From: a virus
IMG/VR virus record: IMGVR_UViG_3300023106_000159
Span: 1-21,303 of that record
Direction: 5' to 3' (one strand)
DNA length: 21,303 nt
Below are positions 15,189 through 21,303 of this stretch, piece by piece. The notes beneath the pieces are model-generated. The model worked only from the letters and a program-made list of their open reading frames with translations, made no database searches and was not told where the DNA came from. Position 1 is the stretch's first letter, and the number at the start of each line of letters is the position of its first letter. A program made the translations under genes and the position numbers.

Positions 15189-16070
15189 ATGGCTGCACGT
15201 CTCGGTTGGGCTGACGCGGTAGCGGGCGCCCCGTCTTATGTTGGCCGCGCCCTGCGGCAAATGTCATCGGTCTTCCTCGGCGGAGCCACGGCGGCGCGCC
15301 CGCTCGGCGCGCGCAGCGGCGTCCGTCCGGGGACTCCGACCACCATCGCGACTGCGACGTCGACGACGTGGACGGTGACTCCGTTCGCTGGCGTGATCGA
15401 CCTTCAGACGGCCGCGATCGCCGGGCCCTACCAGTTCGCGTTCGACACGAACCAGACCGGCGTAGTGACGGCCGCCGGCGGCGCGGCAAGGACCGACCTG
15501 CTGTTCGTGCGCGTGAACGACGCGGCCGAGGGCGACGGCACGGCGGGTGCCCCGTTCGTGGAGATCGGTTACCAGGCGGGCAACCTCACGCCGCCCGCGC
15601 GCTCGTTCGCACTCGCACAGATCAACGTGCCCGCGTCGGGCGGAGGCGCGCCCACCACCATATGGCTCGCGCCCTACACCGTGGCGGCCGGCGGCATTCA
15701 GCCGGTGAATGCAGGCGGCTACCCTGCTTCGCCCTACATCGGGCAGCACGTCGACGATCCGGCCCTCGGGCTCGTCCGATTCAACGGCGCCCTCTGGATC
15801 CCTGTGGGGAACTACACGGAAGCGGCAGGCACGCTCGCTGCTGGCTCGTCCGTCGGCTCGAACAACATCGTCTTCCCCGCCAACCGGTTCACCGTCCCGC
15901 CGATCGTCAACGTGACTCCGCTGAACATCCCCGTCGGCGCGATCATGGGCGTGACCGCGAAGACCGCAACTGGCATGACGATCACCTTCTCCAACTCGGG
16001 CGGATTCGTGAACGGCGTCGGGTTCGACTGGACCGCGCGCCAGATGACCGCCACGACGGCGGCCGGCTGA
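15189..16070 (+). CDS. Minor tail protein, possible receptor-binding role
   Basis: ATG 15189 follows CTAGGGAGTC. The 293-residue product starts with an Arg/Ala-rich helix (MAARLGWADAVAGAPSYVGRALRQ), then a strand-rich region (TTWTVTPFAGVIDLQTA, ARTDLLFVRVNDAAEG, FVEIGYQAG), a Pro/Gly-rich centre and a C-terminal beta domain (residues about 225-293: FTVPPIVNVTPLNIPVGAIMGV and ITFSNSGGFVNGVGFDWTARQ) that looks like the small lectin-like caps found on phage tail tips and fibres. It may bind host surface sugars. The start of the next gene overlaps its stop by one base. Confidence 0.65.
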   Translation: MAARLGWADAVAGAPSYVGRALRQMSSVFLGGATAARPLGARSGVRPGTPTTIATATSTTWTVTPFAGVIDLQTAAIAGPYQFAFDTNQTGVVTAAGGAARTDLLFVRVNDAAEGDGTAGAPFVEIGYQAGNLTPPARSFALAQINVPASGGGAPTTIWLAPYTVAAGGIQPVNAGGYPASPYIGQHVDDPALGLVRFNGALWIPVGNYTEAAGTLAAGSSVGSNNIVFPANRFTVPPIVNVTPLNIPVGAIMGVTAKTATGMTITFSNSGGFVNGVGFDWTARQMTATTAAG

Positions 16071-17023
16071 TGCCCGGCTACCGGCTGCCGTTCCCCGACA
16101 GCACGATCCCTACCGGGGGGACGTTCGCGGACCGCACGCCCCCGCGGGTGGTTGGGCACCGCGGCACGGACTGGTCCTTCTTCAAGGGCGCCCGCGGCGC
16201 GATCGGTTCCGTCTGCCGCGGCCGCGTCGTCAAAAAGGGATGGTCGTCGATCGTCGGATGGTGGGTCGAGGTCGCGTCGCTTGAGGGCGACGGCATGTTC
16301 TGGACCTACTGCCACATGGCGTCGGCATCGCCGCTCGCGGTTGGCGACGTCGTCGACACGGGCGACCGCGTCGGCATCGTCGGGGCTACCGGCTCCGCAG
16401 CTCGAGGAGCGCACCTGCACCTCGCCGGCTCGAAGGTCCGGGGCGGCGGGCTCGCGGAGAGCCTGTCGAAGCTCGTCGATCCGCACGCCTACATCGCGTC
16501 CCACTCCGCCGGAACCGCCGGCGGCAAAGCAACCCCGCTCGACAACGCCCCTGTGGCGCAGGAGGAAGACGAAGACATGCCCAAGCCCATCTACTTCATC
16601 GCGAACGACAACCTCGGCCTGACCGTCAACGTGGGATTCGAGGACGTCTGGTGCCGACCGTTCCCGAGTTCCCCTCTGCTGCGGATGACGCAGGGCCAGT
16701 GGACAGAGTTCAACAACGACCGGACCCCGCTCGAGGTGAACAAGGACTACTTCTGGAAGTCGGGCTCGTGGTTCGGTCTCGCGTTCGCCGAAGACAACCT
16801 GGTGCGTGCGTGGAACGTCTCCGCTCATCCGTGGCTGAACCCGTCCGTCACCGCGCAGGTGGACATCGACGCGCTCGTCGCCGCGATCGACGCGCGCGCC
16901 CTGCCCGTCGACGCCGACGAGGCGAAGCACATCGCCGAGACACGCGCCGAGCTCATCGCGATGAAGGCCCAGATCGAGGCGCTGCCGGACGCCGTCCGCG
17001 CCAACATCAAGGCCGCCCTCTAA
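16070..17023 (+). CDS. M23-family peptidoglycan peptidase with C-terminal domain
   Basis: ATG at 16070 overlaps the previous stop (TGATG). Residues 1-150 are a LytM/M23 zinc endopeptidase: GHRGTDW (His30, Asp34), CHM (His82) and HLHL (His115, His117), the metal ligands and catalytic histidines of the family. The enzyme cuts peptidoglycan cross-links. After an acidic linker (QEEDED, 164-169) comes a 148-residue domain (PIYFIANDNLGLTVNVGF, WCRPFP, then DYFWKSGSWFG) and a helical end rich in Ala and Glu. It could be the endolysin or a tail-associated enzyme for entry. Position among minor tail genes favours the latter, but no other endolysin is seen. A possible internal start lies at 16577. Confidence 0.85.
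   Translation: MPGYRLPFPDSTIPTGGTFADRTPPRVVGHRGTDWSFFKGARGAIGSVCRGRVVKKGWSSIVGWWVEVASLEGDGMFWTYCHMASASPLAVGDVVDTGDRVGIVGATGSAARGAHLHLAGSKVRGGGLAESLSKLVDPHAYIASHSAGTAGGKATPLDNAPVAQEEDEDMPKPIYFIANDNLGLTVNVGFEDVWCRPFPSSPLLRMTQGQWTEFNNDRTPLEVNKDYFWKSGSWFGLAFAEDNLVRAWNVSAHPWLNPSVTAQVDIDALVAAIDARALPVDADEAKHIAETRAELIAMKAQIEALPDAVRANIKAAL
16577..17023 (+). CDS. Possible nested product: C-terminal domain of the M23 gene
   Basis: An AGGAGGA at 16560-16566 stands 10 nt before an in-frame ATG at 16577, exactly at the boundary between peptidase linker and C-terminal domain. Translation there would give a 148-residue protein without the peptidase. Several endolysin genes make a free binding domain this way, which then assembles with the full enzyme. 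The spacing is a little long, so this is a moderate candidate. Confidence 0.4.
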   Translation: MPKPIYFIANDNLGLTVNVGFEDVWCRPFPSSPLLRMTQGQWTEFNNDRTPLEVNKDYFWKSGSWFGLAFAEDNLVRAWNVSAHPWLNPSVTAQVDIDALVAAIDARALPVDADEAKHIAETRAELIAMKAQIEALPDAVRANIKAAL

Positions 17024-18177: not shown

Positions 18178-19134
18178 ATGACCAACCCCGGTGACCTCGT
18201 CCCCTACGGCGACGACGCTCTTGTGCGCAGGCAAGACGACACGATTCGCAAGATGCGGGAGGCATCTGCATCACGCTCGCTCGGCTCGTCCCAAATGGGC
18301 GGCGGCGGGGTGCTGCAGATCGACGGCGACCTTCGCGTGAACGGTGGCATCACCCTTCCCGGCGTTCTCAGCTCGGCGGGCGGGTTGACGGCGACCGCGG
18401 GGAACATCAGCGCGCCGGTGGGCAACGTGTCGGCAGGCGGGAACGTGACGGCAGGCGCTGCCATTAGCGCCGCCGGGCTGATCAGCGGCGGCGGCCTGAG
18501 CTCGGGCGGAGCGATCACTGCGCCTGGGCAGATCAGCGGCGGCTCCGGCGTTTTCAACGGCGGTCTCTACTCCACCGACGCGTACAGCTTCAACATCACC
18601 GGCACGCGCGTGGCGGGCTGGCACCAGATCGACGGGCATATCGGCACGGCGTCGTCGTCAGAACGGTTCAAGACGCACATCGTCGACGCCGACCTGGTCG
18701 CGAAGGCCGAAGCGATCCTCGACTGCCAGCTTGTCTACTACAACTATCGGGCGGAGATCGCGAAGCGCGACGACCCCGAAGCGCCCGGCTACATCGGCCC
18801 CGACTACAAGGTGCATCGGGAACTGGGCATGATCGCCGAACGGCTGCACGAGGCCGGGCTGTGGGAGTTCGTGGTCTACGAGCGCGACGTGACGACGAAG
18901 GATCAGGTCACAGTCGACGACGAAGGCAATGAGACCGTGACGCAGGTCTACGCCGGCGACACCCTTCGGCTGAACGCGGACGGCGAGCCGATCCCCTACA
19001 GCATCCACTACGAAAACTTCTCGCTCGGGGTGCTCGCCGCCACTCAGTACCTCTACGGGCTGTGGAAGGTCGACCACGAGCAGCTCGAACAAAACACGGA
19101 AGCGATCGCTGATTTGCAGCGGCGGCTCGGCTAG
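18178..19134 (+). CDS. Tail spike/fibre with S74 self-cleaving chaperone
   Basis: ATG 18178 follows AGGAGGAGCCC. The 318-residue protein has a short N-terminal helix (residues 12-35, likely for attachment), a Gly/Ala/Ser-rich stretch of short repeats (about 42-130, NISAPVGNVSAGGNVTAG, then ISAAGLISGGG) suited to a trimeric beta-helix, and a C-terminal S74 intramolecular chaperone (about 157-318). The chaperone motif SSERFK has Ser160, Arg163 and Lys165, with the Ser-Lys spacing of 5 known from endosialidase S911/K916, so cleavage before Ser160 would be expected. The C-terminus is a helical coiled-coil (HEQLEQNTEAIADLQRRLG). It is probably the receptor-binding spike. Its stop shares CTAG with the convergent gene. 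Confidence 0.85.
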   Translation: MTNPGDLVPYGDDALVRRQDDTIRKMREASASRSLGSSQMGGGGVLQIDGDLRVNGGITLPGVLSSAGGLTATAGNISAPVGNVSAGGNVTAGAAISAAGLISGGGLSSGGAITAPGQISGGSGVFNGGLYSTDAYSFNITGTRVAGWHQIDGHIGTASSSERFKTHIVDADLVAKAEAILDCQLVYYNYRAEIAKRDDPEAPGYIGPDYKVHRELGMIAERLHEAGLWEFVVYERDVTTKDQVTVDDEGNETVTQVYAGDTLRLNADGEPIPYSIHYENFSLGVLAATQYLYGLWKVDHEQLEQNTEAIADLQRRLG

Positions 19135-19643
19135 GGCTTCATCCAATTGGTGCAGACGTTGTTGGCGTCATACGCCTGGCATTGTTCGCCGCCGGCACCG
19201 AGCGCCTCGCAGTTGCTCTCGTTGCCCGCCGCATCGACTGCGTTCGCCTTCGTGCCAGCCGGGCACTTCACGGCCCCGCCTCCGCTCGAGCGCTTTACCG
19301 GCTTCGCGGCGGCCTGCCGTGCTGCTTCGTCCGCAGCCGCCTGTACGGCAGCCGCTTCCGCTGCGACCCGAGCAACTTCCGCGACGCGGGCCGCTTCGAC
19401 CTCTGCTGCGATCCGCTCGTTCTCCACGCGGATCGCCTCAACGTCTTCGTTGATGAGAACGGCGGTCTGGTCGAAGGCATCGGCGAGCACGCCGGGGGCT
19501 TCGCCGAACGATGCGGCCGCGGCAGCTTCGGCCTTCTGGTCAGCCCGCCACTGCGCGTTAGCGCGGAGCCCGACCATGCCACCGCCGATGACAGCGACGA
19601 GCGCGATGGTGCCGATGACGGTGCGGATCCGCGGTTTCTTCAT
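19131..19643 (-). CDS. Membrane-anchored Ala-rich protein with four-Cys tail (moron candidate)
   Basis: The minus-strand frame from ATG at 19643-19641 gives 170 residues. KKPRIR is followed by a membrane segment (residues 8-28), which predicts a short cytoplasmic N-terminus and an outside C-terminus. Residues 55-115 form an Ala/Glu/Arg-rich helical stretch, then a Gly/Ser linker, then a C-terminal part with Cys127, 145, 155 and 164 (KCPAGTKANAVDAAGNESNC and CQAYDANNVC), likely two disulphides. It is the only minus-strand gene inside the late block, typical of a moron. No clear Shine-Dalgarno is visible, and an AT-rich patch 6-16 bp upstream may be the promoter of a leaderless mRNA. Function is unknown: exclusion, wall binding or lysis control are options. 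Confidence 0.7.
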   Translation of the reverse strand: MKKPRIRTVIGTIALVAVIGGGMVGLRANAQWRADQKAEAAAAASFGEAPGVLADAFDQTAVLINEDVEAIRVENERIAAEVEAARVAEVARVAAEAAAVQAAADEAARQAAAKPVKRSSGGGAVKCPAGTKANAVDAAGNESNCEALGAGGEQCQAYDANNVCTNWMKP

Positions 19644-19648
19644 GAGCG

Positions 19649-19657
19649 AAATTTAAA
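19649..19657 (-). promoter_or_regulatory. AT-rich patch, possible promoter for the minus-strand gene
   Basis: AAATTTAAA is a rare AT-only run in GC-rich DNA, six bases upstream of the minus-strand start. Read on the minus strand, TTAAAT or TAAATT would be a -10 element close enough for a leaderless mRNA. No clear -35 is visible. The inference rests on composition and place. Confidence 0.3.
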
Positions 19658-19703
19658 CAGCTTCCACCGACATCCGCTAGACCCATTCCGAGTTAGGGGC
19701 CCC

Positions 19704-19760
19704 ATGAAAAACGACCGTGTCCACTCCCGCGAGGGAATCCTGCAAGGAAGGGAAAGCTGA
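19704..19760 (+). CDS. 18-codon leader ORF before the lysis genes
   Basis: ATG 19704 opens a short frame (MKNDRVHSREGILQGRES) that ends at TGA 19758-19760, overlapping the ATG of the next gene by one base. A weak AGGGGC lies upstream. The next gene's ribosome binding site (GGAAGGGA) lies inside the last codons, so passage of ribosomes through the leader could open or block it. The peptide is charged with no membrane segment. It could be a coupling leader or chance. Confidence 0.35.
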   Translation: MKNDRVHSREGILQGRES

Positions 19761-20233
19761 TGCCGAGTGTCTACGACACGATCCAGCGGCCGCCGAAGTT
19801 GAAGCGAGCGCCACGAAAGCCGTCCGCCCTCGAACGCTGGGCATGGTCGCCAATCACCGCATTCCGAATCGGCCTCACGCTCACCTACATCGGAGCGATT
19901 TACTTCGGCACATCGGCGTTCATCGCCGGCGTCCCGGCGTTCGTCATCGCTGCCCCCGACGGATGGACGCCGCTGTGGGCTGGCGTGTTGGTGATCGCCG
20001 CAGTGCTCGCCGCCATCGGGTCGGCGGCCGACACGAAGCCATTCCGGCTCATGGAACTAATCGGCTCGTGGGCACTCTTCATCAGCCTCGGCGTCTACGC
20101 GATTGTCCTCTTGTTCATCGCCTACCACGACGGGGATGCCACCCGAGCTGCAGTCGGCGCGGGGTTCGTCGCCCTCGGCATCCAACCCGGCGTGCGAATG
20201 CTGTGGCTCATGGCCCAGCTCGGAAGGAAATAA
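19760..20233 (+). CDS. Multi-pass membrane protein in the lysis region
   Basis: ATG 19760 is preceded by GGAAGGGA. The 157-residue product begins with a basic tail (residues 10-20, RPPKLKRAPRK), then hydrophobic segments at about 38-62, 71-89 and 101-122, and perhaps a fourth at 129-145. The basic N-terminus should stay inside the cell. No enzyme motif is seen. The gene opens a run of three membrane proteins before the terminator, as in phage lysis cassettes, so it may be a holin, antiholin or accessory lysis protein. No single family is recognised. Stop and next start overlap by one base (TAATG, 20231-20235). Confidence 0.7.
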   Translation: MPSVYDTIQRPPKLKRAPRKPSALERWAWSPITAFRIGLTLTYIGAIYFGTSAFIAGVPAFVIAAPDGWTPLWAGVLVIAAVLAAIGSAADTKPFRLMELIGSWALFISLGVYAIVLLFIAYHDGDATRAAVGAGFVALGIQPGVRMLWLMAQLGRK

Positions 20234-20553
20234 TGGAGTGGCTAGCCCCCTCAGTCGCCGGCCTGCTGGCCCTCATCACAGGCGTCACCGTGGCGATCAT
20301 CACGGTCCGCGGCGGCCGCAGCAGCAACCGTGAGAACCGGGCGCCGGATGTCACCGACTCGTGGGCGGAGGCAGACCGCGCACGCACGGTCGCTTGGCGT
20401 GCCCTCGATCTGGTGTTCAAGCTGCGGTCCGCGTTCCGCTCGTACTTCCTGCGCGTGTCTGCGGGCGGCTCCCTCGAGCTGACCGTCGACGAGCGGCACG
20501 CGCTCGAAGCAGAACCACCCACCCTCGACCCAACACCTAAGGAGAAAGCATGA
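20233..20553 (+). CDS. Single-pass membrane protein, lysis region
   Basis: ATG 20233 overlaps the previous stop and is preceded by GGAAGGAAA. The 106-residue product has one membrane segment at residues 5-25 (VAGLLALITGVTVAIITV) followed by RGGRSSNR, so the C-terminal part should be cytoplasmic by the positive-inside rule. The remainder is charged and helical (DSWAEADRARTVAWRALDLVFKLRSAF), ending in a Pro/Glu-rich tail. Similar one-segment proteins sit next to holins in actinophages and may be antiholins or regulators. Its stop overlaps the start of the holin candidate (ATGA, 20550-20553). Confidence 0.7.
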   Translation: MEWLAPSVAGLLALITGVTVAIITVRGGRSSNRENRAPDVTDSWAEADRARTVAWRALDLVFKLRSAFRSYFLRVSAGGSLELTVDERHALEAEPPTLDPTPKEKA

Positions 20554-20876
20554 ACATCATCTTCGACATCCCGCCCGCGCTCGTCATCGGCCTGGTCGTC
20601 TCAACGATCCTGCCGCTGCTCGTCGGCCTTGTCACGAACGTGAAGATCGACCCGCGCGTGAAGGCGCTGCTGCTCGCGCTCTTCTCGGCGGCGACGGGCC
20701 TGCTCACCGAGCTGCTCGCGGCGGTCAACGCCGGCGCGGCCTACAACCTCGGAACCGGGCTGGTGCTGGCCGTGGCTGCGTTCCTCGTCGCGGTCGGCCT
20801 GCACTTCGGGCTGTGGAAGCCGACGGGCGCCGCTGATGCGGCGCAGCGCGCTGGCGCGAGGCATCTCGCCCTGTGA
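20550..20876 (+). CDS. Putative holin
   Basis: ATG 20550 follows AAGGAGAAAGC, the clearest ribosome binding site of the lysis genes. The 108-residue product has three hydrophobic segments at about 9-29, 38-58 and 68-88, short loops with a conserved-looking KIDPRVKAL between the first two, and a charged C-terminus (AAQRAGARHLAL). Length and three-segment layout match class I-type holins, which form membrane lesions that release the endolysin or trigger it. The call rests on topology and its place at the end of the late operon. The related membrane genes upstream could share the role. Confidence 0.7.
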   Translation: MNIIFDIPPALVIGLVVSTILPLLVGLVTNVKIDPRVKALLLALFSAATGLLTELLAAVNAGAAYNLGTGLVLAVAAFLVAVGLHFGLWKPTGAADAAQRAGARHLAL

Positions 20877-21018: not shown

Positions 21019-21303
21019 TCATGTCTGCTGCTTGCCGCCCCACCCGATGTACGGGACGCCGGAGGGGCCGCGGGTGGAGGTGAACCACGAGTGGCCGGCG
21101 CGGGCGGCCGCGAGCAGGTTGCCGTTGTAGGAGATCACGGCTCGCTCGTCGCGGGCGGGGTGGGCGATGACCCGGTAGCCGAGTTCGTCGCCGCGGCGCA
21201 CGAGCGTGATCGTGGCATATGTCTCGCCGACGGGGCCGATCATCGACCACGTGCCGACTGGTCCCTCGATGGCGTTGAGGATGGGGTGCCAGGTTGTGGC
21301 CAT
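21019..21303 (-). CDS. Small protein of unknown function (94 aa)
   Basis: On the minus strand, ATG is the last three bases of the window (21303-21301) and the frame ends with TGA at 21021-21019. The 94-residue product has strands with Thr/Val and Gly (GTWSMIGPVGETYATITLVRRG, GYRVIAHPARDERAVISYNG) and ends in a Trp/Gly-rich VPYIGWGGKQQT. It has no membrane segment and no cysteines. The upstream region is outside the window, so an earlier start cannot be excluded. It converges on the late operon. No family is recognised; its small, soluble, beta-rich nature is all that can be said. Confidence 0.7.
   Translation of the reverse strand: MATTWHPILNAIEGPVGTWSMIGPVGETYATITLVRRGDELGYRVIAHPARDERAVISYNGNLLAAARAGHSWFTSTRGPSGVPYIGWGGKQQT

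Follow-up and report, generated by a model that had tools for sequence, protein, structure and literature searches.

Surface exclusion encoded beside fibre genes is well documented in coliphages. Cor, known from T1, phi80, N15 and HK022, is encoded downstream of the tail-fibre genes (PMC13164509), and Llp of T5 adjoins pb5 and has an intramolecular disulphide (PMC9586334). Both are small, exported lipoproteins that are anchored and concern Gram-negative outer-membrane receptors. Ltp of the Streptococcus thermophilus phage TP-J34 and the Ltp-like gp41 of Cutibacterium acnes phages belong to phages of Gram-positive hosts (PMC3952083, PMC11480721). Ltp consists of a lipid anchor, a spacer and a C-terminal active domain outside the cell (PMC3952083); it has helix-turn-helix repeats and its gene is located in the lysogeny module.

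The window analyzed here (the whole stretch of DNA, a 21.3-kb virus record) is a fragment of a Microbacterium-type siphophage genome; its terminase gene is 82.5% identical to the terminase of phage Min1 over 0.9 kb. It carries a gene for a small protein with four cysteines, hereafter the four-Cys gene, which by our comparison resembles Cor and Llp in placement and Ltp in body plan and is a member of neither, because no sequence or fold match was found and the window protein has no lipobox. Like Cor and Llp, the predicted product is small, exported and anchored, and its gene lies next to a tail gene. The placement by a fibre gene is shared in eight members of the family, provided that the S74-type tail protein encoded alongside acts as the receptor binder. 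In contrast to Cor and Llp, the host is Gram-positive and the protein has a long stalk and no lipobox; among the relatives, L050 alone possesses a lipobox. The plan of Ltp is predicted in 14 of 14 family members, whereas the C-terminal module of the window protein, with four predicted short strands and no family match, differs from the helix-turn-helix repeats, and the gene is found beside a tail gene and encodes four cysteines.

The four-Cys gene and its predicted product

The gene and the parts of its product are as follows.

19131..19643, minus strand: four-Cys gene, predicted 170-aa exported protein; ATG start; 13 relatives
19566..19622, minus strand: hydrophobic segment, residues 8-26 (membrane anchor or signal peptide), from a hydropathy scan
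19266..19565, minus strand: Ala-rich stalk of 100 residues (27-126), with a predicted long helix at 50-113
19134..19265, minus strand: C-terminal four-Cys module, residues 127-170; invariant cysteines in 14 members, dN/dS of ~0.1

The initial annotation had described a single membrane segment, an Ala-rich helical stalk and a C-terminal four-Cys module, and the hydropathy scan, the composition and AlphaFold2 confirmed this description. A single hydrophobic segment was found, the best 19-mer covering residues 8-26 with a mean hydropathy of 2.11. It is followed by a linker of 100 residues with 34% Ala, and the protein has exactly four cysteines (C127, C145, C155 and C164), all within the last 44 residues. 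AlphaFold2, run on six family members, predicted for the window protein a helix at 7-43, a second, confident one at 50-113 and, in the module, four short strands; the module was modeled at moderate confidence. Instead of serving as a permanent anchor, the membrane segment may be cleaved off as a signal; in either case the module would be outside. The product is predicted at the cell surface, where it had been placed before.

The earlier remark that the module could not be placed was borne out: no family in Pfam, PHROG, NCBIfam or PADLOC matched the protein, and neither fold searches nor sequence searches of the PDB gave a significant match. The fold search with the module alone returned nothing with an E-value below 1, and PAN_2 matched two of 14 members, below its curated cut-off (E = 0.053, 14.1 bits against 21.1). 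A search among actinobacterial cellular proteins, proposed along with the initial annotation, found no relative when run, and no plasmid homologues were found. Weak family matches (GltJ, TolA) mostly covered the low-complexity linker and were rejected, and weak TNF-receptor-like fold matches were not used. The possibility of an exported effector directed against the host or competing bacteria would suit a small, Cys-rich protein with predicted export, and one relative gave a weak match to Microcin V (E = 0.029, 15.4 bits, cut-off 27). This match is below the cut-off and is seen in no other member, and no leader-processing or immunity partner gene was noticed adjoining; we regard an effector as improbable.

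In OscarSo (L010:3876-4004) and L020 (6001-6123), the module contains DTDGDG in its second half, which resembles a calcium-binding loop; from Pfam there was only an EF-hand_5 match, in 1 of the 14 members (E = 0.34).

Conservation and genomic place of the family

Relatives were collected by pattern searches in IMG/VR, stepping from relative to relative and via the neighboring tail gene. Thirteen were found, namely ten distinct contigs and the three named phages OscarSo, Isperia and Wyvern, making 14 members together with the window; L007 has the same sequence as L006 and was left out of the contig count. Microbacterium phages and contigs of uncultured phages account for all of them. Scanning with the Isperia/Wyvern module added no contigs, and L051 and L052 were dropped, since only the Thr/Pro-rich portion of the query seems to be matched in them. 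The Arthrobacter phage Wilde drew attention through a weak fold hit and through a gene flanked by terminase and portal; the product of that gene, gp16, proved to be an unrelated membrane protein.

The four-Cys module is under purifying selection with a dN/dS of ~0.1 (dN 0.09 and dS 0.90 between the window and L002; dN 0.09 and dS 0.68 between the window and L004). Seven of its columns, the four cysteines included, are invariant across all 14 members, and an alignment of its two sequence groups over the first 23 columns has an hhalign probability of 86% (E = 5e-6). The predicted order of anchor, stalk and module is common to the family; the stalk, of ~50-110 residues, varies freely in composition, from Ala-rich to Pro-rich. 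Considering the lipobox of L050, anchoring itself seems to be the property that is kept.

GC-rich DNA gives many long frames, and in 4 of the 5 members compared one antisense frame is open as well, as might be expected if the frame were due to chance or the stretch had an antisense regulatory role. However, the low dN/dS, the invariant cysteines, the conserved place and an annotated relative in OscarSo speak against this, and in L003 every antisense frame contains 2-4 stops while the sense frame is open. We rejected this explanation on the dN/dS and the conserved place, and its probability appears negligible. The initial annotation had named a broken frame in relatives, together with conserved plus-strand frames, as an observation that would contradict it; the frame is intact in the relatives and the plus-strand frames are not conserved. 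On this comparative evidence, 19131-19643 (minus strand) is a real gene.

In the window, the gene converges with the last tail gene.

18178..19134, plus strand: convergent partner, last tail gene with an S74-type C-terminal region (Pfam, PHROG, profile A4)
19131..19134, both genes: CTAG, the 4-bp overlap of the two convergent stop codons, with the same overlap in six convergent relatives

The partner matches PHROG tail families and scored 18.8 bits with Pfam Peptidase_S74, below the curated cut-off of 22; our S74-type profile A4 matched the tail partner in 8/8 convergent members. These eight are the window, L002, L003, L004, L006, L031, L037 and L049, and the overlap of the two stop codons measures exactly 4 bp in seven of them and 16 bp in L006. 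In five other members (OscarSo gp7, Isperia gp7, Wyvern gp9, L020 and L050) the gene is on the plus strand between terminase and portal, a placement that for L020 and L050 was derived from gene order, not from a family search. In L048 it lies beside the integrase.

The products of OscarSo gp7 (annotated as "membrane protein"), Isperia gp7 and Wyvern gp9 (both "hypothetical protein") resemble the window protein in the membrane segment, a similar stalk length and the four-Cys module, and these phages also have an S74-type tail protein. They differ in gene place and strand, in the Pro-rich stalk, in a TTGACA promoter pattern and in having no integrase.

A membrane segment and a location with the tail genes on one side and the holin (20550-20876, PHROG holin E = 8e-25) on the other could also indicate a factor for lysis or a late membrane event, grouped with the neighboring holin genes. 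Its strand is opposite to that of the lysis genes, it has its own promoter-like sequence and five members carry it at the terminase end, which makes such a role about as improbable as that of an effector. The statement that this is the sole minus-strand gene is correct inside the plus-strand block; beyond it, just past the holin, lies a second minus-strand ORF (21019-21303, 94 aa), whose relative (42.5% over 80 aa) occurs in contig G011 (L037), which has the four-Cys gene. Between the four-Cys gene and the holin are two small plus-strand genes with hydrophobic segments (19760-20233 and 20230-20553); neither has relatives among the contigs compared, and the first has no usable family match. Among the tail genes, 16067-17023 (plus strand) encodes a peptidase M23 domain (Pfam E = 2e-13) and is possibly an endolysin or a tail-associated wall hydrolase.

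Predicted promoter and lifestyle of the carriers

The AT-rich patch reported upstream of the gene is present, and it contains a promoter-like hexamer.

19650..19655, minus strand: predicted -10 box TAAATT, 6 nt from the ATG, with leaderless geometry
19664..19671, minus strand: GTCGGTGG, with a closely similar form upstream of the L002, L003, L004 and L031 genes

In mycobacteria, TANNNT -10 boxes and leaderless mRNAs are prominent in the transcriptome, and about a quarter of the genes with a primary start are leaderless (PMC3898074). A TANNNT box stands 6-7 nt before the ATG in 6 of the 8 convergent genes, compared to 6 of 91 control genes at that spacing (the other genes of Isperia and Wyvern; p = 2e-5), and none of the eight has an upstream Shine-Dalgarno sequence. 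A leaderless promoter separate from the late operon is therefore predicted, and it is from this pattern that we infer promoter activity. A scan of the window region with the sigma-70 consensus found no promoter, and TTGACA is absent upstream of the convergent members, for which reason the claim is limited to the -10 box and its spacing. In OscarSo, Isperia and Wyvern, the upstream region reads TTGACA, 17 nt, a -10-like hexamer, 6 nt and ATG, a score equaled in at most 0.05% of mononucleotide shuffles; L020 and L048 have no TTGACA-type pattern. In L002 and L003 the -10 box lies within an inverted repeat that has no counterpart in the window or L004, for which reason no operator is proposed.

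A tyrosine integrase was found in 5 of the 6 distinct convergent contigs scored, the exception being the 24-kb contig G011, which is perhaps incomplete. None of the four terminase-portal phages scored (OscarSo, Isperia, Wyvern and contig G006) has one (p = 0.048 between the two arrangements). Both temperate and probably lytic phages thus carry the gene, and a role confined to lysogeny is disfavored. The initial annotation saw in the gene the marks of a moron acting at the cell surface, for example in superinfection exclusion or in host change in lysogens. The patchy presence and the mostly integrase-bearing convergent relatives agree with a moron, and the opposite strand relative to the flanking genes and the leaderless-type promoter sequence may indicate independent transcription; a restriction to lysogens does not hold, given the four scored phages without integrase.

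The same architecture and promoter evidence, and the prevalence of integrase among phages with the convergent form, would also fit a conversion protein that alters the host surface for a purpose other than exclusion, such as adhesion, wall protection or signaling. However, the gene is also carried by phages without integrase, for which a benefit to a long-lived host would count for little, and the link with a single tail-protein class would be left unexplained. We consider a conversion protein unlikely, while giving it more weight than an effector or a lysis factor.

Association with the S74-type tail protein and proposed function

The S74-type tail protein is present in 13/13 members on adequate contigs; L050, an 8.4-kb fragment without tail genes, was left out of this count. 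Neither the four-Cys gene nor the S74-type tail protein occurs in 14 other Microbacterium phages, comprising Min1 and 13 representatives, and these negatives are the informative part, as the search profiles include some of the positives. In five contigs with an S74-type tail, no detectable module gene was found. The association is weaker than it appears, because several contigs were found via the tail gene and the three named positives represent one lineage (collapsed p = 0.07), and the tie between the four-Cys gene and this tail protein is suggestive.

The gene, its conservation, its architecture, its place and its co-occurrence with the S74-type tail protein can all be read from sequence. 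The combination of an anchor, a variable stalk and a conserved cysteine tip suggests presentation outside the cell. The gene adjoins one for a particular class of tail protein, which suggests that the product may target either the receptor used by phages with such a tail protein or their tail. From these features we infer export, disulphide bonding and a function in exclusion: the product may be, with about an even chance, an exported surface protein for superinfection exclusion that works like Cor/Llp or Ltp and is unrelated to them in sequence. In a phage of a Gram-positive host, such a protein would be exported and held at the cytoplasmic membrane, and its small module, probably bridged by disulphides, would be carried by the stalk into the wall or across it. 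Its own promoter, probably giving a leaderless mRNA, would face against the late tail operon and act independently of it, which would allow the protein to be produced by a repressed prophage or at an early stage of infection. The module would most likely bind the receptor, or the incoming tail, of phages with an S74-type tail protein, and further infection would be blocked.

More tentatively, we propose a wider possibility, to which we give somewhat less than even credence: a new stalked four-Cys family, unrelated in sequence to known ones, with which phages of Gram-positive, Microbacterium-type hosts, temperate and lytic alike, would exclude phages with the same S74-type tail class, from a gene located beside a fibre gene like that of Cor. 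Exclusion is opposed by the lack of a sequence or fold match to any exclusion protein, by the S74-tail contigs without a detectable module gene and by the distance of the gene from the tail gene in the terminase-portal phages.

If exclusion is the function, the solution known from coliphages would recur with a different protein where the host lacks an outer membrane. In that case, the module and the S74-type tail protein would jointly offer a handle on the receptor of these phages. OscarSo, Isperia and Wyvern are isolated phages that allow the exclusion reading to be tested. OscarSo clusters with MulchRoom and MiniFlayer, satellite phages of Streptomyces, when terminase, portal and capsid protein are compared (PMC10690885); thus, one niche of the four-Cys gene is a structural block akin to that of the satellites.
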